Source of the DNA: a virus
Reading direction: 5' to 3' (one strand)
Length of the DNA stretch: 44,471 nt
IMG/VR virus record: IMGVR_UViG_3300033996_000679
Location: 1-44,471 of that record
Each line of letters opens with the position of its first letter. Position 1 is the stretch's first letter. Of the stretch, positions 5,872 through 42,327 are shown one piece after another. The notes under the pieces are model-generated. The model saw only the letters and a program-made list of their open reading frames with translations, ran no database searches and was not told the DNA's origin. Made by a program: the position numbers and the translations under genes.

Positions 5872-5883
5872 AAACATTTAGCC
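5866..5883 (+). other. Intercistronic hairpin across the tape measure stop codon
   Basis: GGCTAAA-AACA-TTTAGCC is a perfect 7-bp stem with a four-base loop that includes the tape measure stop codon. It is followed by TTAAAAAAA, not a T tract, so it does not fit an intrinsic terminator on this strand. It may shape mRNA processing or translation between the tail and head genes. Confidence 0.5.
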
Positions 5884-5888
5884 TTAAA

Positions 5889-5897
5889 AAAACATAT
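5889..5897 (+). promoter_or_regulatory. AAAACATAT motif 6 nt before a start codon
   Basis: AAAACATAT is followed by TAAGAT and the ATG at 5904. The spacing is identical to the site at 1397, although the flanking bases differ. Confidence 0.35.
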
Positions 5898-5903
5898 TAA
5901 GAT

Positions 5904-7070
5904 ATGAAGAAAGATTTACCAATTTATGACATCGTTCTTTCTGATGATAATCAGGGAGTAGGTATGATATCACTTGTTGATGATCCTGCAATTCAAGTTA
6001 ACTGGATTAAGTTAGCGAATCAACCACAAGAACTTTTCTTTAAGACTGATGTTGATAAGCAAATGTTATATGGTCCATTCTTGATACCTAATAAACTCAT
6101 TTATAGATTTGATGAGATTAATGGTGAATACTATGTTAGATTTAAGAAAGAACAAATCGAAGAAATAGCATCTAAATTCAACGAGGATCTTAATAACAAG
6201 AACATCAACTTTATGCACACAGATGAAAAGGTTGATGCTTTCGTTTCTCAAAATTGGATTATTGAAAACGAACAAGACAAAAGTAAAAGTTTAGGATTTG
6301 ACTTACCAGAAGGAACTTGGTTTGGTGGTGTTAAGGTCAAAGATTCTAATTTTTGGACAAATAAAGTTAAAAACGAGGAAGTTAAAGGATTCTCTGTTGA
6401 GATTCTTGCTGACTTAGAATTATCCCTAAAAAATAAAGAACAAATAATGAAAAAACAAATCAAATTAAGTTCTGCAGTTCTAAAAAATGGAACTACTGTT
6501 TACTTTGATGGAGACTTAGCTGTTGGTACGGCAGTTTATCTTGACGAAGCTTTAACAGAAAAAGCACCAGATGCTGACCACGTTGCAGAAGATGGTACTA
6601 TAGTTGTAACTGTAGATGGTATAATTACTGAAATCAGACCAGTAGAAGAAATGGCTGGTGAAAAATATCTTGCAGAAGACGGACCTTGTTATGAAGGTTA
6701 TGTACAAGTAGGTATGAAGATGGTAGATGGTAAAGAAGTGCCAAACTGCGTACCAAACGAAGATGGTAGAATAGCTGAATCAACAATGGCTATCGATCCT
6801 AACACAGGTAGTGAGTTACCAGCTCAAATCACACCAGAAGAAGTATCAATGATGATTGATAACAGATTCGGTGAATTGATGGAAGAAATCACAAGACTTA
6901 AAATTATGATTGAAGGTGGTGAAAAAGAAATCGAAGAGTTTAAGAAACAAGTTAACGAGAAATTCTCTACAACTCCTGCTAAACCTTCTATCAAAAAACA
7001 AGAGGTTAAGATTGATGAGAAGTTCTCTTCAATGGAAGCTCGTGTAAAAGCATTCGCTAAAAACAAATAA
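5904..7070 (+). CDS. Prohead protease (XkdF-like) fused to a scaffold-like C-terminus (388 aa)
   Basis: The N-terminal domain (about residues 50-170) matches the XkdF-type prohead serine protease layout: GPFLIPNKLIYR, then MHTDE with a candidate catalytic His near residue 105, then GFSVEI with a candidate Ser near residue 164. Residues about 185-245 form a small Gly/Asp-rich beta domain. Residues about 255-280 hold a GPCYEGYVQVGMK...VPNC segment seen in other phage head proteins. Residues about 315-350 are a predicted coiled coil, as expected for scaffold. The gene lies directly before the capsid gene. It would mature the prohead and supply a delta-domain or scaffold. The role is inferred from motifs and position. 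Confidence 0.75.
   Translation: MKKDLPIYDIVLSDDNQGVGMISLVDDPAIQVNWIKLANQPQELFFKTDVDKQMLYGPFLIPNKLIYRFDEINGEYYVRFKKEQIEEIASKFNEDLNNKNINFMHTDEKVDAFVSQNWIIENEQDKSKSLGFDLPEGTWFGGVKVKDSNFWTNKVKNEEVKGFSVEILADLELSLKNKEQIMKKQIKLSSAVLKNGTTVYFDGDLAVGTAVYLDEALTEKAPDADHVAEDGTIVVTVDGIITEIRPVEEMAGEKYLAEDGPCYEGYVQVGMKMVDGKEVPNCVPNEDGRIAESTMAIDPNTGSELPAQITPEEVSMMIDNRFGELMEEITRLKIMIEGGEKEIEEFKKQVNEKFSTTPAKPSIKKQEVKIDEKFSSMEARVKAFAKNK
6447..7070 (+). CDS. Possible nested scaffold protein from an internal start (207 aa)
   Basis: The in-frame ATG at 6447 (Met182 of the protease-scaffold protein) falls exactly between the protease domain and the beta/coiled-coil part. Its context, AACAAATA-ATG-AAAAAACAA, resembles the A-rich starts of other genes here. 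Lambda (C/Nu3) and related phages make scaffold from such nested starts. The product would contain the Cys motif and coiled coil but no protease residues. Initiation here is inferred. Confidence 0.35.
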   Translation: MKKQIKLSSAVLKNGTTVYFDGDLAVGTAVYLDEALTEKAPDADHVAEDGTIVVTVDGIITEIRPVEEMAGEKYLAEDGPCYEGYVQVGMKMVDGKEVPNCVPNEDGRIAESTMAIDPNTGSELPAQITPEEVSMMIDNRFGELMEEITRLKIMIEGGEKEIEEFKKQVNEKFSTTPAKPSIKKQEVKIDEKFSSMEARVKAFAKNK

Positions 7071-7117
7071 TAAGTTTTTTACATATTAAGAAACTACAAA
7101 AAATAAATAAATAAAAA

Positions 7118-8041
7118 ATGGCTTTAACAGACAATACTACATTTTACGGTAAGGACGCTGAAGGTTTCTTCAAGAAAGTACTTACCACTGGTGTTGCTAA
7201 GAATGAGTTAGCTCTTATACCAAACGTAAAGAGCAAAATCAAATTAGCTTACTCTGACTTAGGTAACATCCTACAGGCTGATGATTGTTCTTTCTCTGCA
7301 ACAGGTGAAGGTACTTTAAATCAAAAGACTATGGAGGTTTGTGACCTTAAAGTTAACTTAGAATATTGCGCAACAACATTCGAGGCTAACTACTTATCAC
7401 TACAATTAAGAGCTGGTTCTAATAGCGAAGAAGTTATGCCGAACTCATACGCTGAATTCGTAGTTGACTACGTTGCTGAAAAAGTAGCATCTGACTTAGA
7501 ATTAACTATGTTCAAAGGTGATACTGCAACAGCTTCTTATCCTTACTCACTTTGTGATGGTTTAGTAAAACAATTGCTAGCTGATGGTACAGTTATCGAT
7601 GTTGCTGCTACTGCATCTTCAATTACTGCTGCTAACGTAGTAGGTGAGTTAAATAGAATTCTTGAAGCAGTTCCTGCACAAGTTAGACAACAAGCTAACT
7701 TCAAGATTTTTATCTCTCAAGAAATCGCATTCGCTTACAAACAAGCTCAAGCTGCTACAACTGGTGGATTGTTCTTAGTAGGTGATAAAGAATTGAACTA
7801 CTTAGGATTCAGATTGATTCCTACTTCAGGTCTTTCTGCAAAACAAATGATTGCTTTCAACTCAGATAAAGTTTACTTCTTAACTGACTTAACTTCTGAT
7901 TGGGATGAAATTATCATCATACCACAAAGAAATATCTCTGGTGCAAGAACTGAAAGATTCGCAACTTCACTTAAATTTGGTATCAACTATCTTTACGGAG
8001 CTGAAATCGTTCTTTACTCTGGTGGTACAATTATGGCATAA
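7118..8041 (+). CDS. Major capsid protein (307 aa)
   Basis: This is the shell-forming protein, probably with the HK97 fold. It follows the protease/scaffold gene by 47 nt, the standard position, and its length fits the family. The middle holds a long helical segment (YAEFVVDYVAEKVASDLE, residues about 110-127) compatible with the spine helix. The chain ends with a beta-rich region containing a LKFGINYLYGAEIV segment and no cleavage-type tail. The leader AAATAAATAAATAAAAAATG suggests strong translation in a Bacteroidota host. Assignment rests on context and general sequence character. Confidence 0.8.
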   Translation: MALTDNTTFYGKDAEGFFKKVLTTGVAKNELALIPNVKSKIKLAYSDLGNILQADDCSFSATGEGTLNQKTMEVCDLKVNLEYCATTFEANYLSLQLRAGSNSEEVMPNSYAEFVVDYVAEKVASDLELTMFKGDTATASYPYSLCDGLVKQLLADGTVIDVAATASSITAANVVGELNRILEAVPAQVRQQANFKIFISQEIAFAYKQAQAATTGGLFLVGDKELNYLGFRLIPTSGLSAKQMIAFNSDKVYFLTDLTSDWDEIIIIPQRNISGARTERFATSLKFGINYLYGAEIVLYSGGTIMA

Positions 8042-8075
8042 TCCTCCTTTGGATAAAAAAATAAACTAAAAGCAA

Positions 8076-8591
8076 ATGGCATGTGTTTCATTTTCAGGCG
8101 GTATTCCTAAAGATTGTGCAAATAATATAGGTGGGTTAACAAAGTTGTATATTACAGACTTTGATAACATCACAGGTTATACACAAGCAGGTGGTACTGT
8201 ATCAGCAATCACTCTTGCAACTGCTTCTTACTTCTATGAGTTTGAGTTCAACAGAAACTCAGCAACATTCACAGAAGATTTAGTAAAATCAGTAGAAGCT
8301 GGTTCTGCTCTATTTGAGCAAACTACTACGGTTACTATTCCAAGAAGAGATGTAGCTAAGAGAAATACTTTGGCTCTTTTAACACAAAGAGACTTAGCAG
8401 TAATCATAAAAGACTCTAATGGCTTGTTCTGGTATCCAGGAGCTGTAGAAGGTATGTATTTATCAGAATCTACATCTACATCTGGTACAGCAAAAGCAGA
8501 CGGATCTAATTATGTACTGACTCTAAAAGGATTTGAATCCGATAGAGCACCAGGTGTAGCACCAGGTATAGTAGCAGCTTTAGTAGCTTAA
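8076..8591 (+). CDS. Probable major tail tube protein (171 aa)
   Basis: This is a single-domain protein with alternating strands, of the size usual for tail tube subunits. It follows the capsid gene and is closed off by a strong terminator, which fits an abundantly made structural protein. The segment FYEFEFNRNSATFTEDLVKS resembles the strand-loop-strand part of tube proteins in Bacteroidota phages, and residues about 90-110 (VTIPRRDVAKRNTLALLTQRD) form the likely single helix. A decoration or head-surface protein is the main alternative. Confidence 0.55.
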   Translation: MACVSFSGGIPKDCANNIGGLTKLYITDFDNITGYTQAGGTVSAITLATASYFYEFEFNRNSATFTEDLVKSVEAGSALFEQTTTVTIPRRDVAKRNTLALLTQRDLAVIIKDSNGLFWYPGAVEGMYLSESTSTSGTAKADGSNYVLTLKGFESDRAPGVAPGIVAALVA

Positions 8592-8613
8592 CTATAACCA
8601 CTACATATAAAAT

Positions 8614-8649
8614 AAAAACCCAACTTCTTTACAGAGGTTGGGTTTTTTT
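8614..8649 (+). terminator. Intrinsic terminator after the tail tube gene
   Basis: CCCAACTTCT-TTAC-AGAGGTTGGG pairs at 9 of 10 positions plus one G-U, flanked by AAAAA and TTTTTTT. The symmetry would let it work in both directions, but both neighbouring genes are on the + strand. It separates the capsid/tube genes from the portal group. Confidence 0.9.
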
Positions 8650-8709
8650 GTATATAAACACTAATTTAGACAGATGAATTTTATAGATTAAAAACAATAT
8701 AAAGTTTAC

Positions 8710-8718
8710 AAAACATAT
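8710..8718 (+). promoter_or_regulatory. AAAACATAT motif downstream of the terminator
   Basis: The nonamer lies in the 150-bp gap after the terminator, 23 nt before the ATG at 8742. A promoter is needed here if the terminator is efficient, and no TTTG/TAnnTTTG promoter is visible. Confidence 0.35.
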
Positions 8719-8741
8719 TAATTAAAATATATCTGCTCGAT

Positions 8742-9101
8742 ATGATGATTAACTTTACACCAGGTGTGACAGCGTCTATATGGATGAGTCTACGAGAATC
8801 GACTCCTTATGGTTCAACAGCGAGCTTTAAATTTACATTCACTAATGATATATCAGGTCAAACTAAAGTCTTTTACCCTACTGACTTACAACCTGATAAC
8901 AAGTGGTCTAAATTTAATATCATTGTTGCTACACCAGAGAATCTATCTACCTCTAAATTAGATATGGCACCAGGAATGTGGTCTTACATAGTTGAAGCAG
9001 GTTTAACCATACTTGAAACGGGTAAAGTACTGGTGAATGAAACAAAAACTTGGACTACTTTAGACAGACCCGCTAAAAACACACCAGTCCTCAGAAGATA
9101 A
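8742..9101 (+). CDS. Small structural protein of unknown role (119 aa)
   Basis: I do not recognise the family. The chain is beta-rich (ASFKFTFTND, TKVFYPTDL, KFNIIVAT) with an immunoglobulin- or fibronectin-like strand pattern, and has no signal or membrane segment. It lies after the terminator and one nucleotide before the portal gene, so it is probably a virion component made with the portal. Two Met codons are adjacent at 8742 and 8745; either may be used. Confidence 0.55.
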   Translation: MMINFTPGVTASIWMSLRESTPYGSTASFKFTFTNDISGQTKVFYPTDLQPDNKWSKFNIIVATPENLSTSKLDMAPGMWSYIVEAGLTILETGKVLVNETKTWTTLDRPAKNTPVLRR

Positions 9102-9102
9102 T

Positions 9103-10302
9103 ATGGCACTATTTGACTTTATTAGAAAACCACAACAGGTTGAAAAACCAAACATCACACAGGATTTAGTAGATTCTATTATGTTAAGAAACATAGAACT
9201 ACCAATGCCTAAAGAACAAAAAGGATTTGATTGGGTACTATTCGGACCTAACAATCAATTTCCAATTGACCTTCTTGAATATAGAAATTCATCAGCGATA
9301 CACGATAGTATAATCGAATCTAAGACATCTTTAATAGCCGGTAATGGTTTTCTATTCGGAGACACAAGAGAAGCGTCTAATCAGTTTATAATCGATAATT
9401 GGAAGCTCGTACCTTTCTGGAGAAAACTTGATAGAACATTCTGGCAAGTAGCAAGAGACCAAGAGACTTTTGGTTATTCTTGTTTCGAGATTATCTACTC
9501 AATGGATAGAACTCGTGTTGCTGATATCAATTGGATTGATGCTTCAAGAATTGCTGTTGGTAAGAAAGATGAGTGGGGTCAGATTAAAAAGTACTACTAC
9601 TCAGAGAATTGGTCTAACACAAGAACTAATCCACCACGAGAAATAGACTCTTGGGATCCTAATGGTGAGTCTTTAAGACAACTTATGTTTATTAAGTATG
9701 AAGATAACAATATAGATTACTATGCACTACCTAACTATTATTCTGCTTTAAGATGGATTAAGGCTGATGCTTTAATGGCTGAGTATAACTTAGCAGCAAT
9801 CAATAATGGTTTCTCACCATCAATTGTGTTTAAGTTTTATAAGAAACCTACACCAGATGAACGTAGAATGAATGCTGAGGCTATTAGACAACAACACGGT
9901 GGTTCTAAAAACGCTGGTAAAGCAATTATCTTTTACTCAGATGGTAAAGAGTTAGCACCAGATGTTACAACTATTGATGCAACAAATATCGACCAAAGAC
10001 TTTTACAAGTTGCTGAACAAATCACTCAACAAATCATCACGGCTCACAGAGCACACCCACAATTATTAGGAATTCAAACACCAGGTAAATTAGGCTATTC
10101 ATCGGAGTTAGTTCAATCTTGGGAAATCTTTGATAAAATGGTTATTCGACCAGAAAGAAAATTAATCTTTGATGCTTTTAAGGAAGTTCTTATTTATAAT
10201 GGTGTTAGTAAAATTGAAATTGAAGACCTTAAACCTATTAACACTGATGCTGCTGAGGCACCTCAGGTTAGTTTCTCAATAAATAAAAAAAATGACATAT
10301 AA
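9103..10302 (+). CDS. Portal protein (399 aa)
   Basis: The portal is the ring at the capsid vertex through which terminase pumps DNA. The protein has typical portal character. The N-terminus (about residues 35-75) carries a FGPNNQFP...LLEYRNSSAIHDSIIESKTSLIAG segment, like the first wing helices. Residues about 120-150 read FWQVARDQETFGYSCFEI, matching the conserved D-x-E/L-x-x-G-x-x-Y/F-wing region, followed by a WIDASRIAVG strand. The long C-terminal helices (QRLLQVAEQITQQIITAHR) fit the stem/crown. It is compact compared with many portals. It overlaps the next start (TAATG). Unusually, it is downstream of the capsid gene and about 20 kb from TerL in the unit. Confidence 0.85.
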   Translation: MALFDFIRKPQQVEKPNITQDLVDSIMLRNIELPMPKEQKGFDWVLFGPNNQFPIDLLEYRNSSAIHDSIIESKTSLIAGNGFLFGDTREASNQFIIDNWKLVPFWRKLDRTFWQVARDQETFGYSCFEIIYSMDRTRVADINWIDASRIAVGKKDEWGQIKKYYYSENWSNTRTNPPREIDSWDPNGESLRQLMFIKYEDNNIDYYALPNYYSALRWIKADALMAEYNLAAINNGFSPSIVFKFYKKPTPDERRMNAEAIRQQHGGSKNAGKAIIFYSDGKELAPDVTTIDATNIDQRLLQVAEQITQQIITAHRAHPQLLGIQTPGKLGYSSELVQSWEIFDKMVIRPERKLIFDAFKEVLIYNGVSKIEIEDLKPINTDAAEAPQVSFSINKKNDI

Positions 10303-10868
10303 TGGCAGCAACTTTTTCAGCACTATTTATAGACGACCAATATCTTAAAGATTATACTCCACTCGGCAAATCAGTCGATATTAACGAGATATATCCTTTT
10401 GTAGAAGAAGCACAGAACGTGTATATTCAAGATGTTTTAGGTACGCCTTTATACATAGATTTAGAATATAAACTTTACACAGGAGTTACTTACTCGAATA
10501 TTGAAAGACAATTAGTTGATATCTGTTCTAAAGGATTGGCTTACTGGACTGTTTATATGGCACTTCCACATTTAGCAATTAAGATTAGAAACTTAGGTGT
10601 TGCAAGACCTACATCAACTGATGCTCAGGTATCAACAATCGATGAGATGAAGTATGTAAGAGAAGAAATGAAAAACTTAGGTGAGTTTTGGAACACAAGA
10701 GTAGTTAACTTTTTATGTGAGAACTCAACATTATTTCCACTTTATCAAGCGGCTTCTGATGATATGTATCCTAACACAAGACAATATGACTCTGATATTT
10801 ACTTAGAAGAAACTTTCAGAGACTTAACTTTAGAAGAGATTAGGTACTTGAAAAAATATTTAAGTTAA
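10302..10868 (+). CDS. Head-completion/adaptor-type protein (188 aa)
   Basis: The protein follows the portal with a TAATG overlap. It starts with LFIDDQYLKDYTPLG and continues as a helical chain with a WTVYMALPHLAIKIRN core. This style is seen in head-tail adaptor proteins of Bacteroidota phages, where the gene follows the portal. Residues about 170-188 (LTLEEIRYLKKYLS) form a helix. It would bind below the portal to receive the tail. It is mostly helical with no Cys motif beyond one Cys pair. The second copy is cut off by the window end. Confidence 0.55.
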   Translation: MAATFSALFIDDQYLKDYTPLGKSVDINEIYPFVEEAQNVYIQDVLGTPLYIDLEYKLYTGVTYSNIERQLVDICSKGLAYWTVYMALPHLAIKIRNLGVARPTSTDAQVSTIDEMKYVREEMKNLGEFWNTRVVNFLCENSTLFPLYQAASDDMYPNTRQYDSDIYLEETFRDLTLEEIRYLKKYLS

Positions 10869-19207: not shown

Positions 19208-19571
19208 AATTTACCTGAATAACAAATCACTTTACAAAGAGATACTAATATCAAAAGCAATGGGTAAATTAACACGCGAAGCAGAAAGAATGTTAATCTT
19301 ATTAGCAAAAAACACAATCAAAAAATTCTACTATCATAATCCTGATGATAAACAAGATTGTTTACAGAACGGACTTTATATGATGTTTAAGTTCTGGTAT
19401 AACTTTGATGAGATTAAAAGTACAAACGCCTTTGCTTATTATACAGAAGTGTTTAAGAGAGGTGTTGCTGCTGGTTACAACCAACTATATAAAAAGATTG
19501 ACGGTGAGTATATGTTTAATCAATCATTAGACTATACTGACGCTCAAGGAAACAAAATAACAAACATATGA
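19200..19571 (+). CDS. T4 gp55-like late sigma factor (123 aa)
   Basis: Residues about 22-98 match the gp55-type sigma region 2 layout: REAERMLILLAKNTIKKFYY at the start, then an acidic D-D-K-Q-D-C segment like the DEMISD of gp55, a helix ending in NFD, then STNAFAYYTEVFKRGVAAG like the N-PFAYFTQI...AF segment. There is no region 4, as in gp55. In T4, gp55 directs RNA polymerase to TATAAATA late promoters with gp33 and the sliding clamp; neither partner is recognised here. It is translationally coupled to TerS and the methyltransferase. Confidence 0.7.
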   Translation: MSKIYLNNKSLYKEILISKAMGKLTREAERMLILLAKNTIKKFYYHNPDDKQDCLQNGLYMMFKFWYNFDEIKSTNAFAYYTEVFKRGVAAGYNQLYKKIDGEYMFNQSLDYTDAQGNKITNI

Positions 19572-20944
19572 AAAGAACTAAATTAATGTTGGGAGACAAC
19601 ATCGAATCACTACGAAAACTTCCTGATAATTCAATTGATAGTGTGGTTACAGATCCACCATATGGTTTATCATTTATGAATAAAAAGTGGGACCACGATG
19701 TTCCATCTATTGAGTTTTGGTGTGAAGTTTATAGAGTTCTAAAACCAGGAGGACATATCTTATCTTTCGGTGGAACAAGGACATATCACAGAATGGTTGT
19801 GAATATAGAAGATGCTGGTTTTGAGATTAGAGACCAGATTATGTGGTTATATGGTTCAGGATTTCCTAAAAGTCATAACATCGGTAAGGCTGTTGATAAG
19901 TTACAAGGTAATGATAGAGAGGTTGTTGGTGAAATGAAAGGTGCTGGTTCAACAGGAACAACATATATATCAGGTCAAGAACATCATGATGGATTAGATA
20001 AAGGTGTTTTTAAGAGTTCATATATTGGAACAAAAGGTCAATCACCTTATGAAGGTTGGGGAACAGCTCTTAAACCAGCAAATGAACCTATCTGTGTTGC
20101 TCGTAAGCCATTAAGTGAAAAGTCAGTTGCTGAAAATGTTTTAAGATGGGGAACTGGTGGTATAAATATAGATGGTTGCCGCATAGAAGGAATAGACCCA
20201 TCAAACGCAAAAAGAATTGGTAAAGAATATACAAGTGAAGCAACAAATGAAGGTGAAGTTTTTGATACACTTAATAAAACCGCAATTGTTGGTGGTTCAT
20301 TAGAAGGCAGATTCCCAGCCAACATCATATTAGAATGTATATGTGATGAGGTTATTAAGGGTGAAAAAGGTGAAGTTAAAACAACAAATAGAATAAGAAA
20401 AGGTGAAGCAGCAGGTGGATTAGATATAAATGAAAATAGAAAAGCAGTTGAAGGTATAGACAATTATAATGATAAAGGTGATATTCATACTAATCCGATG
20501 TGTCCGTGTCGTTTGATGGACGAACAAAGTGGTTTATCAAAAACTAATCATAAAGGTAATAGAACTGATAAAGGTGTTGTTACTGGAGTAATTGGATTTG
20601 GAAGAGGAACAGAAGTAGCAAGATGTGATAGTGGCGGAGCCTCACGCTTTTTCTATCAAGCAAAAGTAAGTAAGGCTGAAAGAAATATGGGTTTAGATAG
20701 TTTTGTAATAAATAAGAACACACATCCTACAATAAAGCCCGTATCACTTATGGCTTACCTATGTAGATTAGTAACACCACCTAATGGTATTGTATTAGAC
20801 CCGTTTATGGGTTCTGGTTCAACAGGTATAGCAGCACAATTAGAAGGGTTTAGATTTTGTGGTATGGAAATGGATAAAGATTACTTTAAGATTGCTGAAT
20901 CAAGAATAGAAAACTACGAACAATATAGAAAATTTATAAAATGA
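19568..20944 (+). CDS. DNA adenine/cytosine-N4 methyltransferase, beta class (458 aa)
   Basis: DPPY (residues 29-32) near the N-terminus and FMGSGSTG (about 413-420) near the C-terminus give the catalytic-first, SAM-binding-last order of the beta class. Conserved stretches in between include FPKSHNIGKAVDK, EGWGTALKPANEPI and GGINIDGCRI, a family frequent in phages. The central 200 residues hold the target-recognition part. DPPY suits N6-adenine or N4-cytosine methylation. No restriction enzyme is nearby, so it probably protects phage DNA or marks it for packaging or regulation. It overlaps both neighbours through ATGA. Confidence 0.9.
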   Translation: MKRTKLMLGDNIESLRKLPDNSIDSVVTDPPYGLSFMNKKWDHDVPSIEFWCEVYRVLKPGGHILSFGGTRTYHRMVVNIEDAGFEIRDQIMWLYGSGFPKSHNIGKAVDKLQGNDREVVGEMKGAGSTGTTYISGQEHHDGLDKGVFKSSYIGTKGQSPYEGWGTALKPANEPICVARKPLSEKSVAENVLRWGTGGINIDGCRIEGIDPSNAKRIGKEYTSEATNEGEVFDTLNKTAIVGGSLEGRFPANIILECICDEVIKGEKGEVKTTNRIRKGEAAGGLDINENRKAVEGIDNYNDKGDIHTNPMCPCRLMDEQSGLSKTNHKGNRTDKGVVTGVIGFGRGTEVARCDSGGASRFFYQAKVSKAERNMGLDSFVINKNTHPTIKPVSLMAYLCRLVTPPNGIVLDPFMGSGSTGIAAQLEGFRFCGMEMDKDYFKIAESRIENYEQYRKFIK

Positions 20945-22146
20945 AACTACAGATAGAAGGTAACAGATTATTAGATGAGATGTTAAACTCAGATAAAAGA
21001 TTCTTCTTACACATAGGTGGTTCACGTTCTGGTAAGACTTATTCTATTCTACAATACATTATAATCTATTGTTTCAAGAACAAAGATAAGACAATAACAA
21101 TTGCTCGTAAGACTTTTCCTTCTTTAAGATTAGGTGCTTACCGTGAGTTTATTCAACTCTTAAAAGACTTAGATGTTTATAAAGAAGAATCACATAATAA
21201 AACAAATAACTTTTACAATCTAAACTCAAACACAATTCAGTTTATATCAATCGACCAATCACAGAAACTGAGAGGTCTTAAACACGACTTAGTTTTTATT
21301 GATGAGGTTAATGAAGTTAGCAAAGAAGAAGCCGACCAACTCTTTATGAGAACTGAAGACAAGATTATAATGGCTGAGAATCCATCCGATGCTCTTCACT
21401 GGTCTCTTAAACTTAAATCAGATGTAGATGCTCTTTACTTACATTCAACTTATATTGATAATCCTTTCTTACCACAAGCAATTGTTAGTCAGATTGAATC
21501 ATATAAAGAAACAGATGAAGATTTGTGGAATGTGTTTGGTCTTGGTCTACCAGCCAAGAACAATGAACTTGTATATACAAATTATGAATACTGGCATTCA
21601 GAAGATGAACTATTTGAGATAGATGAAAAAGGTGACAAACATCCTAAGTATGAAGATGTTGTTATTGGTTGTGACTGGGGTTATCAACACCCTTCAGCTA
21701 TTATTAAGTTATGGATTGATTCTAACTATAGAAGAGTGTGGGTTAAAGAATTGATACACGAAAGTTATTTAACAACAGAAGACTTAATCACTAAGATGAA
21801 AACATTTAACATAGAAGAGTTAAAACTATTTGGTGATTCAGCAGAACCTAAAACAATTGAATCAATTAGAAGAGCAGGTTTTGATATTGAGTCATCAATG
21901 AAAGAGGTTAGAGAAGGAATAGATTGTGTTAAAAGTTATAAACTTTTCATACACTCCGAGAGTATAAAGTTACAAGAAGAATTAAGAAGATACAAATGGA
22001 AAATCAAAAACGAAATGAGAACTGATGAGCCTGTTAAACTATTTGACGATGGACTATGTGCTATTAGATACGCACTCTACACCTGGACAAATAGAAACAG
22101 TAGAAGAAACTCATATGATTTCGATATTGATTGGATAGACTTATAA
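20941..22146 (+). CDS. terL: Terminase large subunit (401 aa)
   Basis: This is the ATPase-nuclease that pumps DNA into proheads and cuts the concatemer. Walker A GGSRSGKT is at residues 26-33 and Walker B LVFIDE at about 117-122, with a following coupling motif. The RNase H-like nuclease has candidate acidic residues Asp245 (VIGCDWGYQHP), Asp299 (LFGDSAEPKTIESI) and Asp369/370 (FDDGLCAIRYALYTW). The length is standard for the PBSX/SPP1-like group. It is coupled to the methyltransferase gene by an ATGA overlap. Confidence 0.95.
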   Translation: MKLQIEGNRLLDEMLNSDKRFFLHIGGSRSGKTYSILQYIIIYCFKNKDKTITIARKTFPSLRLGAYREFIQLLKDLDVYKEESHNKTNNFYNLNSNTIQFISIDQSQKLRGLKHDLVFIDEVNEVSKEEADQLFMRTEDKIIMAENPSDALHWSLKLKSDVDALYLHSTYIDNPFLPQAIVSQIESYKETDEDLWNVFGLGLPAKNNELVYTNYEYWHSEDELFEIDEKGDKHPKYEDVVIGCDWGYQHPSAIIKLWIDSNYRRVWVKELIHESYLTTEDLITKMKTFNIEELKLFGDSAEPKTIESIRRAGFDIESSMKEVREGIDCVKSYKLFIHSESIKLQEELRRYKWKIKNEMRTDEPVKLFDDGLCAIRYALYTWTNRNSRRNSYDFDIDWIDL

Positions 22147-22382: not shown

Positions 22383-22589
22383 ATGGAAGTTACAAAAACT
22401 ATTATACATGAAGACCAATTCATTAGATTAGAAAAGATAAGTTTTGGTAAATATAAAAGACCACCAGTTTATCGTGAACTTATTAAGACTAAGTCTGGTA
22501 ATGTGTCAGAGGTTAAAGAACTAAAGACCTTACCTGACTGGTACTTAAGGTCTAAAAAATTAAACTACTTACTTAATGAAGAAGATTGA
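22383..22589 (+). CDS. Small unknown protein, paralogue 2 (68 aa)
   Basis: I do not recognise it. It is more basic than paralogue 1 but shares the LPxWYxRxKKxxxxL C-terminus. Its ATG follows the previous stop codon without a gap, and its 3' end overlaps the tail chaperone gene by 14 bases, so the three are translationally coupled. Confidence 0.5.
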   Translation: MEVTKTIIHEDQFIRLEKISFGKYKRPPVYRELIKTKSGNVSEVKELKTLPDWYLRSKKLNYLLNEED

Positions 22590-23184
22590 AAGTTGGGCTG
22601 ATATAACTATTGGTCAGTATCAAGAGATGATGCTTATTGAAACAGAAAATGATATAACAAGATTTATACAACAAATCTCTATTGCTTTAGACATTGACTC
22701 TGAAGAGATTAGAAAACTATCTTTATTAGAGTTTAAGAAACTACAAGAAAATATGTCTTTCTTATCAGTAAAGGTAGAAGCTGACTTATCACCTATAATT
22801 GAGATTGATGGTAAAAAGTATGGATTAATTCCTGATATGGGTACAGTAGATGCTGGTACTTTTATAGATGCTGAACAATTCAAGGAAGATACTATACTTA
22901 ACTTACATAACTTAGTTGCCCTAATTTACAGACCAGTTATAAAACAAGATGGTGATGAGTATGAAATAGAGAGACATAAGGCTGAAGGATTTGAGAGACG
23001 AGCCAATCTGTTTAAGGAAAAAGTAAGTATAGAAACCGTCATGGGAGCTGTGGTTTTTTTTTCGAGTGTCGCGACAGAATTATCAATCAATTTACTAACT
23101 TATTTGGCGGACCAACACAAGACTCAGGAGACACCGACGAAGACGAAGAAGACCCGAACACGTACGAAGAAAGTCAAAGAATAA
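22576..23184 (+). CDS. Tail assembly chaperone, unshifted form (gpG-like, 202 aa)
   Basis: The chaperone coats the tape measure before the tube polymerises. It opens with SWADITIGQYQEMMLIETEN, a strong tail-chaperone-type start, and has a hydrophobic helix near residues 156-178 (GAVVFFSSVATELSINLLTYL). The unshifted form ends in a Lys/Thr/Arg tail (TKTKKTRTRTKKVKE). The reading frame contains a T9 run at 23054-23062 where a -1 shift would give the longer form. Its position is unusual: the tape measure is about 13 kb downstream, not next to it. Confidence 0.7.
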   Translation: MKKIESWADITIGQYQEMMLIETENDITRFIQQISIALDIDSEEIRKLSLLEFKKLQENMSFLSVKVEADLSPIIEIDGKKYGLIPDMGTVDAGTFIDAEQFKEDTILNLHNLVALIYRPVIKQDGDEYEIERHKAEGFERRANLFKEKVSIETVMGAVVFFSSVATELSINLLTYLADQHKTQETPTKTKKTRTRTKKVKE

Positions 23185-23336
23185 GTTTTCAGAAAACCTG
23201 GGGTCTATATGATATGGTTTCTAATTTAGCTGATGGTGATATAATAAAAATTCAACATATCTATGACTTACCAATAGTTGCTTTATTTAACCACCTATCT
23301 TATAAGATATCATCAGGTCATAAAAAACAAGCATAA
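22576..23336 (+). CDS. Tail assembly chaperone, -1 frameshift form (gpGT-like, 253 aa)
   Basis: Join of 22576-23061 and 23061-23336 after slippage on T-TTT-TTT (23055-23061). The -1 frame stays open for 91 codons past the slip, to the stop at 23334-23336, while the 0 frame stops at 23182. The shifted part has an acidic linker (DSGDTDEDEEDPNTYEE) and a folded-looking end with WGLYDMVSNLADGDIIKI and LPIVALFNHLSYK. This closely resembles the W-x-x-Y-x-x-hydrophobic-x-x-L-A-x-G-D-I-x-K end of other tail chaperone T domains. No good start codon exists in that frame, so fusion is the best explanation. Confidence 0.75.
23055..23061 (+). other. Slippery heptamer T-TTT-TTT for -1 frameshift
   Basis: The heptamer sits in frame (Phe-Phe codons 23056-23061) within a T9 run. 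It fits X-XXY-YYZ with both tRNAs re-pairing perfectly. A single-base indel in the run is the competing explanation. Confidence 0.7.
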
Positions 23337-31267: not shown

Positions 31268-34200
31268 TGAAAAAAACTCAATTAATAGTTTTTGATAGAC
31301 CTAATAACGCTCTTGTAACACCAGGAACTACATACAACACAGGTGTCTTAAAATCAATGGGTTTAAGCGCATCACAATTATCACCGGCTTATTCTTATCA
31401 ACAATTAGATAAACCTAATAGTGTTCCTTCACAAGCAGACACATATATTTATCAAAGAGCCTCTGCTGGTAAAGAGATTGACCTTTTTGATGATGTTAGT
31501 ATACCTATCACATTCACAATCTTAGATATTAGAGAACCTGAAAAGAGAAAGACTTCTTGGTCTAAAACTATAACTATACCAGGTACAAAGAATAACAACA
31601 GAATCTTTTCACACATCTATGAGATATCTTCTGATAACTGGTTAAAGATTGGTAACACTTCAATCTATCAAGGTTTTAATCCTAACTTAAGAACAGAAGT
31701 AATTGTTCTTAATGATGGTATACAAGTGATGAAAGGTAACATGCAGTTAAAGAAAGCAACTCGTGATAATGATGGAAATATTATTTATGAGGTTGCCATT
31801 AATGGTGACTTAACTTCTTTATTCTATGATGTTGGTGATTCTAAATTAGCTGACTTAGATTGGACTGAGTTTGACCATCAATGGACTCGAGATAATGTTA
31901 TTAACTCTTGGTCTGGTATCAATCAGAAATCAGGTGTTAGTTATTCAGTTACAGATTATATTTACAGAGCAACAGTTCGAGGTATAAAAAAAGATTCTTC
32001 AACAGGTAGATTAACGTTTGTTACTAATGGCGCTCACAATTTACAAGAAGGTGACTTTGCTAAAATAACTTTAGATGATACAATAAGTCAAAATTTTAGA
32101 GCAGCTGCAGGTGAGTGGAGAGTTATGTCTGCAACTGGTTCTCAGTTCTCTGTTAACTATTTCTACCCTATCTCTTTAAGTCCTAATGGTGTCAGTTACC
32201 CTTATAACATTGGTGTTGTTAGTGAAGCAATTCATAAAGGTGAAGGTTATGTTTATCCGATGATTTCTTGGGGTGATGAGTATGACCCTAACACATTTTC
32301 TGTAACTAATTTTGTACCAGGTTATTATGTTAAACAAATCTTTGATAAGATTATGAAAGAGACTAATTCTTCATACGATTCTTCTTTTATTAATAGTCAA
32401 TTTTTTAAGAGATTATTTATGATACAAAAGAAGTCTAACTATGATATAAATCCAGCTGAGGTTAACTCAAGAAAGTTTTGGGTTGGTTTAACTGGTTCAT
32501 ATACAACACTGGCTTCTGGTAGACAAACACAACAATTTTATTATTTACAAAACACTAATATAAACACAACAGCAACTGCATCTGTTTTACCTGAGGTCGC
32601 TGCTAACAGAGTTGCTTTCAAGAAAGAAAGTGGTTGGTCTGGTACAGCTTCATTCTTTGATAATGGTGCTACTCAATCAGGTCAAATAGGTAACTGGGAT
32701 GAGTCTACTAATTCTTGGAAGGTTACAGATTCTGGTGAGTACTCACTTAATGTTAACTTAAAGTTAAGTAGTAAATGTGTGATGAATGGTTATGAAAATA
32801 ACTTTTCATCTATAGGTACTGCAAGTTTTACACCAACTACATCAGGTATATTCTATTATCCTGGTACTTTCTATCATAAAGTATCATCAAGTTGGAAACC
32901 TACAGGATGTGGAATAAGAGTCGTGGCGACAATTAAAATGAATAGAAATGGATTTGTATCATCGATAGGTGAAAGTGTCTCAGATCATTTCTATATGAAT
33001 ACTGGTTCGTTCTGGACACCTACTAACACTAACTGGAAAAACTTCGGTACTTATCAACCAGCTAACTGGGAGAACTACGAATTAAAAGTACCTTCAAGTA
33101 ACTCTTACTTTGCTAAAGGCGATGAGGTTTGGGTTGAACTTAAATATTATTTACAATCATACACAAGTGGTGAGTTACTTCTAAATCTTGGTTATTGGTC
33201 TTCTATATCATTTGTTGAAGTAGATACAACAGACCCAGAAGGTTATTATAGACAAGATATCAGAGGTGATTGGTCTATAACTTTAGATTCAGCTTCTTAT
33301 ATCTTTAACGAACCAACTGCGAAGTCAACAGAGAATTCCATTGTTGAAGGTAAATCATTTTTACCTAAAGACTTAAGTTGTAAAGATTTCCTATTAGGTA
33401 TAATTAAATCATTTAACTTACATATTGAACCAGACAAACAAATTGAAAGAAAGTACTATATCGAACCTCGTGATGACTTTTACCGAACTGGTACATCAAC
33501 AACTGACTTTGTAGATTGGACTGATAAGATTGATAATGACTCAGTAGATATTTTACCTGTTGGTGAATTGATTGCTAAGTACTATACATTTGAGAATAAA
33601 TCTGAATCTGATTATTGGAATAAAAAGTTCTTTGAGGATAGAGGTCGTCAGTATCAATATTATAAAAAAGAAATAGTAAATGACTTCTTAAAAAATGAAG
33701 TTAAGGTTACTGTACCTTTTGGTTCATCGGTTATGATTAATAATCCTGAAGGTTCTGATGTTGTGATGCCAGCAATTATACAAAGAGAAACTAATGGTTC
33801 TGTTAAACCAATTAGTAACTCAGCACCAAGAATGTTATTCTGGGGTGGTATGAGACCTTACACAGCTTCAAGAGGTGGTGCTCAGGTTAACTTAGCAAGT
33901 TCATACTCAACATATGCAACTGGTTGGGAGTTATTAAGCTCAGTTGTTTCAACAACAGCTTCTGTTATTTCAACACAAAGTTTTCCTTTTCAACAATATC
34001 CATATGCTGGTACAGTAGATTCACCAACAGACCCTCACTTTGATATCAACTGGTTTAATATGCAAGAAGGTGATTTTGTTTACTGGGACTTTGCAAGATG
34101 GACTAATAATAACTTATACAATGCTTATTGGTCTAATTTTATTAATGAGATATCAGACCCAGCATCAAAGGTTATTAAAGCAAAAGTATGGTTAAAACCT

Positions 34201-35058
34201 TCTGATATTTTTAAGTTAGATTTTAGAAAGATATATGTGATTGATGGTCATTGGTTAAGACTACAAAAGGTTATAGATTATGACCCACTCTCAGATGGTT
34301 TAACTCAATGTGAGTTCTTGAAATTAGTATCACCTACTAAATTTGTAAAGAAATCAATTGTAACGAACTCTTATTCAGAAGTTGGTTCTGTGTTTCCACA
34401 AGATGATATCTTTGTTCCTGGTCCAATTAAACCAGTAACGGTAGAATATGCTCCGATTAAAAAGAAACCTAATATAGGATTTAATAACACAACTATCAGT
34501 TCAGATGTATCAAACAACTTAACTATACAAACAACAGGAGCTTCTAACTTTGTTGCTTCATCGGCAAAGAATATTAAAATAACCGGTGATGAAAACTCTA
34601 TTGGTGAAGGTTCTAAAAATATACACATCTCTTCTGGTAATGGTAACTTTATATCAGGTGGTCTTAACAATGTAAATATTATTGGTACAGATAAAGTTTT
34701 TATACAAGAATCTGATGTGACTTATATAAATGGTGTTAGATATAAAAATGGTATCGCTATTTCTAAATCAAATGTTATTGATGCCGGTGAAGATGTCGCT
34801 GTTGTTAGACAATCTATCAACACAGTATCTAATTTAATTGATGCTGGTGAAGATATCGTTATTCAAGGTGGTTCTACTGCTTATGAAAACTTAATTGATT
34901 CTGGTAAAGATGCTATCTTACCTGATTTACCTGAGTTAGGTATCGGTACCTTAAACAATCCTAATCCACGAACAAACACATCAGGTGGATTTGATAATAT
35001 ATCACCTACGGCTTCGATTACTGAGAGAGTTAGATTAGCAGCTTTCTTAAGATCATAA
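31267..35058 (+). CDS. Tail-tip/hub-like protein (1263 aa), full-length, strain variant B
   Basis: Residues about 75-200 (DVSIPITFTILDIREPEKR, KTITIPGTKNNNRIF, then a beta-barrel-like region with MKGNMQLKKATRD) fit the first domain of tail hub proteins that sit at the tip. Several beta domains follow (about 420-690), then hub-like sections with IIKSFNLHIEPDKQ near 715-735. The C-terminal 400 residues correspond to the fragment at the window start. The end carries repeated Asn/Gly-rich turns (GNGNFISGGLNNVNIIG) and three D-A/S-G-E/K-D motifs. No lysozyme motif is recognised. Confidence 0.6.
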   Translation: MKKTQLIVFDRPNNALVTPGTTYNTGVLKSMGLSASQLSPAYSYQQLDKPNSVPSQADTYIYQRASAGKEIDLFDDVSIPITFTILDIREPEKRKTSWSKTITIPGTKNNNRIFSHIYEISSDNWLKIGNTSIYQGFNPNLRTEVIVLNDGIQVMKGNMQLKKATRDNDGNIIYEVAINGDLTSLFYDVGDSKLADLDWTEFDHQWTRDNVINSWSGINQKSGVSYSVTDYIYRATVRGIKKDSSTGRLTFVTNGAHNLQEGDFAKITLDDTISQNFRAAAGEWRVMSATGSQFSVNYFYPISLSPNGVSYPYNIGVVSEAIHKGEGYVYPMISWGDEYDPNTFSVTNFVPGYYVKQIFDKIMKETNSSYDSSFINSQFFKRLFMIQKKSNYDINPAEVNSRKFWVGLTGSYTTLASGRQTQQFYYLQNTNINTTATASVLPEVAANRVAFKKESGWSGTASFFDNGATQSGQIGNWDESTNSWKVTDSGEYSLNVNLKLSSKCVMNGYENNFSSIGTASFTPTTSGIFYYPGTFYHKVSSSWKPTGCGIRVVATIKMNRNGFVSSIGESVSDHFYMNTGSFWTPTNTNWKNFGTYQPANWENYELKVPSSNSYFAKGDEVWVELKYYLQSYTSGELLLNLGYWSSISFVEVDTTDPEGYYRQDIRGDWSITLDSASYIFNEPTAKSTENSIVEGKSFLPKDLSCKDFLLGIIKSFNLHIEPDKQIERKYYIEPRDDFYRTGTSTTDFVDWTDKIDNDSVDILPVGELIAKYYTFENKSESDYWNKKFFEDRGRQYQYYKKEIVNDFLKNEVKVTVPFGSSVMINNPEGSDVVMPAIIQRETNGSVKPISNSAPRMLFWGGMRPYTASRGGAQVNLASSYSTYATGWELLSSVVSTTASVISTQSFPFQQYPYAGTVDSPTDPHFDINWFNMQEGDFVYWDFARWTNNNLYNAYWSNFINEISDPASKVIKAKVWLKPSDIFKLDFRKIYVIDGHWLRLQKVIDYDPLSDGLTQCEFLKLVSPTKFVKKSIVTNSYSEVGSVFPQDDIFVPGPIKPVTVEYAPIKKKPNIGFNNTTISSDVSNNLTIQTTGASNFVASSAKNIKITGDENSIGEGSKNIHISSGNGNFISGGLNNVNIIGTDKVFIQESDVTYINGVRYKNGIAISKSNVIDAGEDVAVVRQSINTVSNLIDAGEDIVIQGGSTAYENLIDSGKDAILPDLPELGIGTLNNPNPRTNTSGGFDNISPTASITERVRLAAFLRS

Positions 35059-35089
35059 ACACGATAATAAAAATAAAACATATATTGAA

Positions 35090-36259
35090 ATGGCAAGAAT
35101 AGACCAATACTCAAGACTAAAACACCACAGAATATCAACAAGTGGTCAATCATTTACGATTCCTACATCAGAAGACCACACTGACGAAACTTGGTTAGCA
35201 ACTGACCTTTATATCGGTGAAGTTGGTGTGAATATAACTGACGATAAAATGTTCTTTAGAACTAATAATGGTATCGTTCAGGTAATGACTGGTACAACAT
35301 CTGGCGGTGGTACATCATCATCTACAAATATCTGGCAGTTTTCTTCACCTAATATTATTATTGGTTCAACTTATTCAGCAAGTTCAGTTAGTCCTCGTTC
35401 AGGTGTTTACACAGATTTAGGTACATCTACTTTAAGATGGAAAGACCTTTACTTAGGTGGTTCACTTTCAGGAGCAACTATTATCAACACTAATGGTGGT
35501 CTTCAATTAAGAGAATCATCTGATTCAATCTTAGTTACAAAAGGTGTTGCTTCAACTAACGCACCGATAGAAATAAACACTAATTCATCAAACTTTAATA
35601 AAGACCAAGTTCTTTGGTTAAACACAAGATTTGGTTTAGCATCTGGTTCTACAAATTATATTGTTACAGCCGCTGCTAACACAGTCAATACTGATGATAA
35701 CTCTTATGTGTTTGTAGCTGCTGGTGATAACGTATCATTCAATAACGGTGAAAGTTATATGACTCACTTAGGTCGTGGATTTAATAGGTCTGTTTGGGAT
35801 TCTAATATGCACGTTGTTGGTGGTAAATCGGCTGTTAAAGGTATGGGTGATGATGGTTCAACTCAATATGAACAATCTGAATGGATTACTACTCAATCAC
35901 TTTTAAGAACTTCTAATGCGACCACAACAGACTTAGTAACAATTCCTTGGACTTCTACAGCTTCAGGTGGTGATGTGTTACAAGTTAAGGCTTATATTAT
36001 AGGTACAGATATCGCTGATGCTACTAAAGTTTATTCAGCAGAAATGATGGGTTGTTATTCAATTAATGGTTCTTTAACTATAACTGAAATAGGAACACCT
36101 ATCTTGAATGCTATCAGTTCTTGGCCTTCAGGTCAACCTGACTTAGAAATGTTTGCAGACTCTAATGGATTTTACTTAAAAGCAACCGGTTTAGGTGCTA
36201 CTACTATACAATGGTTATGTTCTTATTCATACCATAAACTAATTAATGTTATACCATAA
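35090..36259 (+). CDS. Tail-fibre-like structural protein, second copy
   Basis: The translation is identical to the gene at 1412-2581. Here it lies in its full context, directly after the complete tail-tip gene. Confidence 0.5.
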   Translation: MARIDQYSRLKHHRISTSGQSFTIPTSEDHTDETWLATDLYIGEVGVNITDDKMFFRTNNGIVQVMTGTTSGGGTSSSTNIWQFSSPNIIIGSTYSASSVSPRSGVYTDLGTSTLRWKDLYLGGSLSGATIINTNGGLQLRESSDSILVTKGVASTNAPIEINTNSSNFNKDQVLWLNTRFGLASGSTNYIVTAAANTVNTDDNSYVFVAAGDNVSFNNGESYMTHLGRGFNRSVWDSNMHVVGGKSAVKGMGDDGSTQYEQSEWITTQSLLRTSNATTTDLVTIPWTSTASGGDVLQVKAYIIGTDIADATKVYSAEMMGCYSINGSLTITEIGTPILNAISSWPSGQPDLEMFADSNGFYLKATGLGATTIQWLCSYSYHKLINVIP

Positions 36260-36273
36260 AATAAATCAAATGA

Positions 36274-39200
36274 ATGGCAAATTATGAATTAAATGTTAAG
36301 ATTAATGGTGTTGAACAATCTGTAAGTTCTATTGGCGAACTTGAGAAGGCTCTAACAGAAACTAATGTTGAACTAACAAAGATAGATAAGAATTCTAAAA
36401 GTTTTGCTGCTTTAAATAACCAAGCAGAAGCAGTAAATTCTACATTTCAAGACATAGCAGGTGAATCAAGCACAGTAGCAACTAACTTAAATAAAGTTAA
36501 TCAACAAGCTAATAATCTTGGAAATGCCGTTAGAACTGGTGCTCAATTAGCGTCTGAACTACAAAACGCTGGTCAATCAACTACTAATCTTAATACTAAT
36601 ATGGTAGCAGCTGCTACATCAGCAACATCATTAAGAACTGAATTAAGAAACACCATATTAGAACTACAAAATTTAGAACCAGGTTCAGCAAGATTTCAAG
36701 AGTTATCAGTAAGAGCTGGTGAATTAAGAGACCAGATATCTGATACAAATGCAACGGTTACTGCACTTGCTGGTAACACAACTGAAAGACTCGGTGGTGC
36801 TTTACAAGGAACTGTACAAATAGGTATAGCTGGTTTTCAAGGTGTGGCTGCGGCTCAAGCACTTTTTGGTGTTAAATCAGAAGAAGCGGCTGAGACTATG
36901 GTTAAGTTACAAGCTTTATTAAACTTATCACAAGCAGTACAATCATTTGGTGGTTTAAGAGACCAAGTTACAAACATTATTGCTGGATTTAAAAGTTTAA
37001 TACCAACTGCTACAACTGCGGCTGCTACTACAACAGCGGTTGCTACTGCTGAAGGTGCGGCAGGTGTTGCTGCAACTGGAGCTGCTGCTGGTACCACAGC
37101 CTTCTCTGTGGCTCTTAACTCACTACCATTAGTTGCTATTGTAACAGCACTTGGTTTATTAGTTGCTGGTATGATTAACTACTTTAACACATCTGACCAA
37201 GCAGAAGAAGCAGAGAAAGCAAGAAATGAAGAACTTAAGAAACAAGAAGAACAAATAAAATCTGTAACTGATGCAACAGCAAAAGAAGGTTCTGAGTTAT
37301 TCGTTTTACTGAATAGATTAAAACAAACAAATGCCGGTAGTAAAGAAAGAGCAGATTTAATTAGACAAATTAATGCTGATTATGGTCTAACACTTAAAAA
37401 TCTTCGAGATGAAAAATCATTTCAAGATCAAGTTACAAAGTCTGTTGAAGATTATATTGCACAATTAAAAAACAAAGTCGCACTTCAATTAGTAGAACAA
37501 GAATTAACAACTTTATTAACTGAAAGACTCGATATTGAAAGACAATTAACCGACCAAACTCAGAAATATAACACAGCAAATACTTTCTTTAGAAAAACTA
37601 TTGTTGATACTATACCAGAGTTAAACACATTTAATAACGGTATAGCACTACAAGATGGTTACTTAGCTGATTTAACAGCTCAAAAGTTTAACAACATTAG
37701 AGCAACAAATGCACAATTTGAGGCCGATGCTAACTCAGCAAAACAATCTATTGCATCTCTTGAAGCAAGAAGAAAGTCTATTGATGCACAAGTTCAAGAC
37801 CTTGCTACTGAAGCACAAAGTTATGAGAAGTTATTAAGTGGTGCCTTTGAGAAGATAAACACTGGTTCAACCAATACTGGTAAAAGTCTTGAAGACTTAA
37901 AAGCAAAACAAGAACAAGTTAATAGAGAATCTTTAGACTTCACGGAATTTGCAGCAACTAAAGAAATTGAACTACAAAAGTTAAGAGTACAAACAACTGC
38001 TGATAAGTTAGATGATATAGCATTTGAGACTGCTCAAGAGTTAGCTGAAGGTCAACAAAGATATGAAGCACAAAAGTTAAACATTGAGAAGAATGTTAAA
38101 GATGAAAAAACAAAAATAGAGTTATTAAAAACACTAAACAGTGATTATCAAAGATATTTAACATCACAATCAGAAATAACAGCATTAAGAGAAAATGAAA
38201 TCAATCAGAAAAGACTCCAAGACTCACAAAAACTTTATGCTGAATTAGCACTCGCAAATGAAATTCTACAAAATGAGGTAAGATTTGCTGGAGCCGATAC
38301 TACCGACTCATTGATACTTTTACAAAATAGATTGTTAAATATTCAATTGTCGAATATTGAAAAACAATTACAAGCAGAAGAATTATCTGTTGAAGAGTTC
38401 AATAAACTTCAAGACCAAAAGCTAGAGATACAAAAAAAGTATAATGATAATGCCAAAGCTGATGCAGAAAGACAAGCAAAGGCTCAAGCACAAGTCGAGT
38501 TGGCCACTACTATACAAACATTAGAAGAACAACTTGGCGCTACTGTAGAATTTAACAAAGAAACAAATAGGTATGAAGTAAAAAGTACTGATGAAAAGTA
38601 TGCTGAGTTTGCTAAGTTAGGTAAAGTTGCTCTTGATGATAGAATTGCCGCAGAGACTTTAGCTGAACAAGTTATTAATAAGACAGCTATCAACTTAAAT
38701 GAAGAAGCAAATATTAAAATTCAAGAAAGTGACCAATCTTACATAGATGCTAATGTCGCAGCTGAAAAAGCAGCAGAAGATGAAAAGGCAAATTATAAGA
38801 TCAAAAAGGCTCAGGATGTTTTACAAATTATTCAACAATTTGCTGATGCTGCTATTGCTATAAATGACTTAGTTAATCAAAGTGAAAATCAACAATTAAC
38901 ACAGCAAAATGAAGCAAGAGCACAATCTACTCAAAATCAGATAGATGCTTCTTATGCAGCATTAGAACAAGAGTTAGCTCAATCTAATCTAACAGAAGAA
39001 CAGAAACAAGAAAGAAGAGCGGCTTTACAAAAACAAAATGAAAATCTTGTTAAAACTTCTAATGCCGTTATTGATGCTGAAAATAGAAAGTTGGCTAAGA
39101 AACAATTTGATAGACAAAAAGCTCTTAGTATAGTTAGTGCTTTGATTAATGGAGCAGGTGCTGTCTTACAGGGTATAGCACAATTTGGTCCACCGCCTTC

Positions 39201-39549
39201 ACCATTAGGTATCGCATCTATTGTTGCTGCTGGTATCATAACTGCTGCTCAAGTTGCAGCGATTGCTTCACAACAATTTGATGGTGGTTCATCTGGTAGA
39301 GGAACCGGTATGAATGCTTCTATTCCAGATACATCAACAACTTCAAGTACACAAGCAGCGGCTTTAACACAGACTGCCTCAACAGGTGGATTCACATCAT
39401 TTAATCAGAATGTTACTGGTTCACCACAAAATCAACCAGGAACTACAGGATTCACATCTGGTGGTCAAAGAGTTTATGTGTTAGAATCAGACATAACTGC
39501 GACACAAGATAGAGTTAGAGTGTTAGAATCTAACTCAACATTTGGCTAA
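36274..39549 (+). CDS. Tail tape measure protein, second copy
   Basis: The translation is identical to the gene at 2596-5871. The intercistronic hairpin recurs at 39544-39561. Confidence 0.85.
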   Translation: MANYELNVKINGVEQSVSSIGELEKALTETNVELTKIDKNSKSFAALNNQAEAVNSTFQDIAGESSTVATNLNKVNQQANNLGNAVRTGAQLASELQNAGQSTTNLNTNMVAAATSATSLRTELRNTILELQNLEPGSARFQELSVRAGELRDQISDTNATVTALAGNTTERLGGALQGTVQIGIAGFQGVAAAQALFGVKSEEAAETMVKLQALLNLSQAVQSFGGLRDQVTNIIAGFKSLIPTATTAAATTTAVATAEGAAGVAATGAAAGTTAFSVALNSLPLVAIVTALGLLVAGMINYFNTSDQAEEAEKARNEELKKQEEQIKSVTDATAKEGSELFVLLNRLKQTNAGSKERADLIRQINADYGLTLKNLRDEKSFQDQVTKSVEDYIAQLKNKVALQLVEQELTTLLTERLDIERQLTDQTQKYNTANTFFRKTIVDTIPELNTFNNGIALQDGYLADLTAQKFNNIRATNAQFEADANSAKQSIASLEARRKSIDAQVQDLATEAQSYEKLLSGAFEKINTGSTNTGKSLEDLKAKQEQVNRESLDFTEFAATKEIELQKLRVQTTADKLDDIAFETAQELAEGQQRYEAQKLNIEKNVKDEKTKIELLKTLNSDYQRYLTSQSEITALRENEINQKRLQDSQKLYAELALANEILQNEVRFAGADTTDSLILLQNRLLNIQLSNIEKQLQAEELSVEEFNKLQDQKLEIQKKYNDNAKADAERQAKAQAQVELATTIQTLEEQLGATVEFNKETNRYEVKSTDEKYAEFAKLGKVALDDRIAAETLAEQVINKTAINLNEEANIKIQESDQSYIDANVAAEKAAEDEKANYKIKKAQDVLQIIQQFADAAIAINDLVNQSENQQLTQQNEARAQSTQNQIDASYAALEQELAQSNLTEEQKQERRAALQKQNENLVKTSNAVIDAENRKLAKKQFDRQKALSIVSALINGAGAVLQGIAQFGPPPSPLGIASIVAAGIITAAQVAAIASQQFDGGSSGRGTGMNASIPDTSTTSSTQAAALTQTASTGGFTSFNQNVTGSPQNQPGTTGFTSGGQRVYVLESDITATQDRVRVLESNSTFG

Positions 39550-39581
39550 AAACATTTAGCCTTAAAAAAACATATTAAGAT

Positions 39582-40748: not shown

Positions 40749-40795
40749 TAAGTTTTTTACATATTAAGAAACTACAAAAAATAAATAAATAAAAA

Positions 40796-41719: not shown

Positions 41720-41753
41720 TCCTCCTTTGGATAAAAAAATAAACTAAAAGCAA

Positions 41754-42269: not shown

Positions 42270-42291
42270 CTATAACCACTACATATAAAAT

Positions 42292-42327
42292 AAAAACCCA
42301 ACTTCTTTACAGAGGTTGGGTTTTTTT
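42292..42327 (+). terminator. Intrinsic terminator, second copy
   Basis: Same hairpin and T tract as at 8614-8649. Confidence 0.9.

Follow-up and report, generated by a model that had tools for sequence, protein, structure and literature searches.

The window analysed here, that is, the whole stretch of 44,471 nt, corresponds to positions 1-44,471 of the IMG/VR record IMGVR_UViG_3300033996_000679. Comparison of the window with itself revealed that positions 1-10793 recur at 33679-44471, with 10,637 of the 10,793 bases identical and the mismatches between the two copies located mostly within the first 1 kb. This repeat, at an offset of 33,678 bases, probably means that a 33.7-kb genome, circular or terminally redundant, was assembled past its own end. 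The main features are listed in Table 1. The putative chaperone gene comes after the terminase gene, while the tape-measure candidate, whose copy at 2596-5868 matches the tail length tape measure protein PHROG 3336 (E 7e-6), lies about 13 kb downstream and is not adjacent.

Table 1. Features at the putative slip site and in its genomic surroundings
Feature	Position	Strand	Remarks
N6/N4 DNA methyltransferase gene	19568-20944		directly 5' of the terminase large subunit
Terminase large subunit	20941..22146	+	PHROG 2, E 7e-36; Pfam Terminase_3, E 7e-22
0-frame gene, short form (G-like), putative tail-assembly chaperone	22576..23184	+	202 aa
T9 run, putative slip site	23054..23062	+	
In-phase heptamer T_TTT_TTT	23055..23061	+	X_XXY_YYZ form; codons GTG GTT TTT TTT TCG
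-1 frame continuation, T-like domain	23061..23336	+	91 aa; [FL]xFR after the run and a WGxxD segment
Dual-coded overlap, 0 and -1 frames	23063..23184	+	codon-position divergence over relatives
Protein of 1240 aa	23848-27570		3' of the chaperone region; collagen-like tail-fibre matches
Tape-measure protein candidate	36274..39549	+	second copy at 2596-5871

Analysis of the reading frames indicated that the -1 frame is open over 23016-23336, giving a fused -1 product of 253 aa that has its first ~162 residues in common with the short protein. No ATG, GTG or TTG is found in the -1 frame of the window ahead of the WGLYDMVSNLADGDIIKI segment, and the T9 run is the only T-run of at least eight in the window. 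These results bear out the preliminary description of the locus, which had reported a T9 run with an in-frame heptamer, a 0 frame ending at 23184 and a -1 frame open to 23336 with no start of its own. The same T9 is present in an independent contig (L002, 1 mismatch in 4404 bases compared with the window), and therefore it is not an assembly slip. This recurrence contradicts the possibility raised earlier that another run length would yield one continuous ORF, and in the relatives carrying T10 or T11 the extra T arises by substitution, both frames being preserved. The charge contrast between the two forms was seen in the window, where the 0-frame tail carries +5 and the -1 overlap carries -9, but does not extend to the family: over 73 relatives, the acidic -1 stretch is negative in 82%, whereas the 0-frame tail has a mean charge of +0.6 and is positive in 56%, the basic tail thus not being conserved.

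Scanning of viral contigs with the 0-frame protein, plus two Nonlabens phages, yielded 179 distinct homologous sites. Since the search patterns derived nearly entirely from sequence 5' of the T-run, the relatives were not selected for the run. An in-phase T_TTT_TTT is present at the homologous place in all 179 sites, and the -1 frame is open past the 0-frame stop in every one, with a few contigs ending within the -1 frame. The frameshift layout is real and conserved. The -1 domain is conserved in 73 representative relatives, with [FL]xFR directly after the run. Among 977 moderately diverged pairs, which are not independent and are read as a pattern rather than a P value, divergence at the three codon positions was.139/.064/.353 upstream, where the 0 frame alone is read, and.139/.084/.346 downstream, where the -1 frame alone is read. 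The corresponding values in the overlap were.117/.179/.173, indicating that each frame constrains the wobble position of its counterpart. On this codon-position pattern, both frames are under purifying selection in the overlap.

The cultured homologs are found in the Nonlabens phages P12024S (gp38/gp39) and P12024L (gp40/gp41), directly 3' of the terminase and with a T9 and a -1 continuation; they stand at ~26% identity and are annotated as two hypothetical proteins. In these records (NC_018271.1 gp38/gp39 and NC_018272.1 gp40/gp41; L011 and L012), the short and -1 ORFs appear as unrelated hypotheticals and should be joined. A search of the phage collection turned up no relatives besides the Nonlabens phages, and pattern scanning (two rounds) of 84,980 genomes from bacteria and archaea, which can miss distant members, returned no relative, suggesting that the group may be strictly lytic. 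Several predicted viral proteins of 234-260 aa combine in one chain a match to the 0-frame model with a weak one to the model of the -1 domain. These single-chain predicted proteins in BFVD (A0A516L611, A0A516L5A8, A0A6J5SVK3, A0A6J5MY57, A0A6J7WJY4 and A0A6J7XA66) may come from lineages whose gene is fused, where slippage might produce the short form.

The 0-frame protein matches PHROG 32199, a family of unknown function (E 3e-9), and gave a confident AlphaFold model (pLDDT 89.6), in which the slip point F161-F162 falls within the last helix, a long one (152-185); the model of the -1 domain is helical, at modest confidence (pLDDT 68). The gene is located 3' of the terminase large subunit in the window, P12024S, P12024L and several relatives, and the next gene in the relative L107 encodes a tape-measure protein (PHROG 1506, E 5e-9). 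Weak family matches were obtained to the PHROG 166 tail protein (22 of 72 members, best E 4e-4), to Phage_TAC_7 (3 of 72 members, best E 0.014) and to a chaperone in BFVD (E 0.13). A fold search of the PDB gave no match, sequence searches of the PDB gave nothing useful, and the alignment was not significant in a profile comparison with the P2, 186 and Mu chaperones. A weak structural match to Flavobacterium phage 6H was not used: this phage carries T_TTT_TTC near its 0-frame end, but its -1 frame closes at once. The architecture, the tape-measure neighbour in L107 and the weak family matches together make a tail-assembly chaperone, as the preliminary description had proposed, a highly probable identity short of proof, with the G/GT type the most plausible assignment ahead of formal membership. 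If the pair works as lambda G/GT does, the tape-measure protein would be coated by the short form, with the long form serving to bring in the tail-tube subunits.

Comparison of the run lengths over the 179 sites revealed T9 in 161, T10 in 16, T11 in one, T7 in one and T8 in none. Thus 178 of 179 sites have nine Ts or more, as do 40 of 41 clusters formed at under 70% similarity and 23 of 24 formed at under 50%. The GC content of the loci ranges from 28 to 51%, and T9 or T10 is still present at the top of this range. The run is found in all three codon phases. Its flanks compensate each other, with fewer Ts on one side matched by more on the other: one site under T9 was seen, against ~18 after flank shuffling, and a tree of the upstream protein part requires 16 or more changes of flank state. 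TTC is never used for the second Phe, though it makes up ~25% of Phe codons (P ~1e-6, 41 clusters). In 398 kb of other coding DNA from the same loci, T9 occurred 0 times against 2.3 expected from codon shuffling (sd 1.2), a deficit that is weak for T9 alone, and the in-phase T_TTT_TTT found there belonged to T7 (16) or T8 (2). The difference in runs of at least T9 between slip sites and elsewhere gave a Fisher P of 3e-14 (41 clusters), the slip sites sharing descent so that the P values overstate independence. These comparisons point to a minimum of nine Ts, and not to the 7-base heptamer, as what is conserved, and the recurrence of the run lies far outside what chance would give.

T7 itself was seen 20 times in the other coding DNA against 50 expected, at 0.42 of expectation in phase and 0.35 out of phase. 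The similar depletion in and out of phase suggests a frame-independent cost, as likewise noted for E. coli (PMC4066793). A-runs of at least nine were also depleted in the control coding DNA (12 seen against 46 expected), less completely than T-runs. In many bacteria, selection against A/T runs begins at nine (PMC1088944); runs of nine A or T slip efficiently in vivo, the RNA:DNA hybrid being 9-10 bp (PMC5009743); and the polymerase of E. coli, which favours poly(T), requires 7 T or more (PMC6260861). The T9 run fits these published thresholds.

The retention of at least nine Ts in nearly all relatives suggests that RNA polymerase, besides the ribosome, may do the slipping, and for most of the family we lean towards programmed transcriptional slippage at the T9 run. 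The switch between frames would take place at T9 and, in most of the family, would probably be made during transcription. The rU:dA hybrid inside RNA polymerase would realign on the T-run, and some mRNAs would then carry 10 Us (one extra) or 7 (two fewer). Ordinary translation of a U10 or U7 mRNA would enter the -1 frame and yield a long form ending in the 91-residue -1 domain, while the short form would end at the 0-frame stop. What we infer here is that the polymerase does the slipping and that the proteins act as chaperones, along with the product ratio. The programmed -1 frameshift of the preliminary description is accordingly very well supported as frame switching, by the layout in 179 relatives and the selection on both frames, but not as an established ribosomal slip, given a run of at least nine Ts and no stimulator.

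Classical programmed -1 ribosomal frameshifting at U_UUU_UUU, in which two Phe tRNAs slip back one base, as for lambda G/GT and P2 E/E+E', is a serious contender whose probability we place somewhat below even. Under ribosomal slipping, the long run would improve slipping or reflect protein constraint on both frames. Every T9 includes the in-phase ribosomal heptamer, so both mechanisms predict the same layout, and the heptamer is in phase in all relatives. U_UUU_UUU slips at >0.10% in E. coli without a stimulator (PMC4066793), and the literature treats every described G/GT case that we found as ribosomal (PMC5009743). However, ribosomal slipping does not predict the minimum of nine Ts, the missing T8, the flank compensation or the lack of T_TTT_TTC as the sole site, U_UUU_UUC being a working ribosomal motif in E. 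coli (PMC4066793), and in other genes T7 is no more strongly avoided in phase than out of phase. A conserved stimulator was not found outside one lineage, L013: analysis of downstream folding energies, over pseudoknot-free structures, gave a mean z of -0.22, compared with -0.48 to 0.37 elsewhere in the same genes, and revealed no conserved RNA structure. A Shine-Dalgarno stimulator is unlikely, since none of the 25 window genes has a Shine-Dalgarno motif upstream. Missing Shine-Dalgarno motifs are expected in phages of Bacteroidota. A 5' nascent-RNA stem able to stimulate polymerase slippage was looked for and not found.

L013 (AGT TTT TTT ATG) is the only site under nine Ts, and its T7 forms the heptamer exactly in phase, a placement that ribosomal slipping accounts for. 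Its downstream stem of 10 bp, starting 5 nt after the heptamer, ranks first among 178 sites, and its score is matched by ~0.1% of random positions, although the shuffle z over 100 nt is only -1.2. Within the loop of this stem, a second hairpin is found (L013, 2962-3061), making the region a candidate ribosomal frameshift stimulator. The placement of the stem is as expected for ribosomal frameshifting and makes L013 a candidate case of a switch, which one lineage cannot prove. In weighing transcriptional slippage, we count in its favour the near-universal run of at least nine Ts, the absence of T9 elsewhere, the occurrence in all three codon phases with flank compensation, the missing TTC, the like depletion of in-phase and out-of-phase T7, the lack of a conserved stimulator, the L013 stem and the published slippage thresholds. 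Counted against it are L013, showing that T7 can suffice in one lineage, the failure to find a stimulating 5' RNA stem, and the residues flanking the run, V/L ahead of it (0 frame) and F/L behind it (-1 frame), which could favour Ts for protein reasons. We give roughly an even chance to the fuller scenario, in which this large group of mostly uncultivated phages makes the tail-chaperone pair by polymerase slippage at T9 and the L013 lineage switched to a T7 heptamer with a stem-loop, so that one protein pair would have two interchangeable mechanisms, as is reported for bacterial dnaX.

Two separate overlapping genes, as in the annotation of P12024S gp38/gp39, with the -1 ORF translated on its own through internal or coupled initiation, are very improbable. 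The Nonlabens records do annotate two ORFs, and an ATG precedes the conserved W in the -1 frame in 53 of 179 sites. However, 62 of 179 sites, the window included, are without ATG, GTG or TTG between the run and that W, and conservation of the -1 frame sets in at the T-run, ahead of any start, with dual coding spanning the stretch. Separate genes would also leave the T9 itself unexplained, and predicted viral proteins hold both parts in one chain. That a sequencing or assembly error or a decaying gene split one ORF has next to no chance: homopolymers are generally error-prone, but 179 distinct sites, drawn from many samples and with two cultured phages among them, repeat the layout and the T9, and purifying selection on both frames and independent contigs refute it.

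Among long-tailed phages, frameshifting of the tail chaperones is conserved and serves as a textbook example of ribosomal recoding; the slip heptamer of lambda is GGGAAAG. The locus resembles lambda G/GT in its short protein with a -1 extension from an overlapping ORF, its small helical C-terminal domain and its position in a tail gene region (PMC5009743); it differs in having T9 in place of the lambda heptamer, in a tape-measure gene that is not adjacent in the window, and in that no sequence homology is shown. P2 E/E+E' and 186 orf51/52 (Pfam Phage_TAC_7) likewise shift by -1 on a T-based heptamer, GGT TTT TTG, which contains T6 compared with T9 here. The pure-T slip site that the preliminary description had singled out is thus distinct from that of lambda but not the first T-based one, and it is the long run that sets it apart. 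In the literature searched, with most subscription papers outside it, no tail chaperone made by transcriptional slippage was found. Transcriptional slippage at 9A/9T, the same run length, is known from Thermus thermophilus dnaX and IS elements, the latter joining overlapping ORFs at conserved runs (PMC1088944); here, slippage is proposed from the DNA sequence. The analysis provides gene borders and a likely role for a widespread family so far labelled unknown, and T9 without a stem compared with T7 with a stem, together with the cultured Nonlabens phages, makes the mechanism directly testable. If our reading is true, tools seeking only heptamers and RNA structures would misread the cause, and the same assembly problem, the short-to-long ratio, would be solved by two machines, RNA polymerase and the ribosome. 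Such a pair would be similar to the dnaX homologs, which, according to a title cited in PMC3711429, use either slippage or ribosomal frameshifting, an alternative to which the prevailing T9 and the stem-bearing T7 of L013 may be likened.
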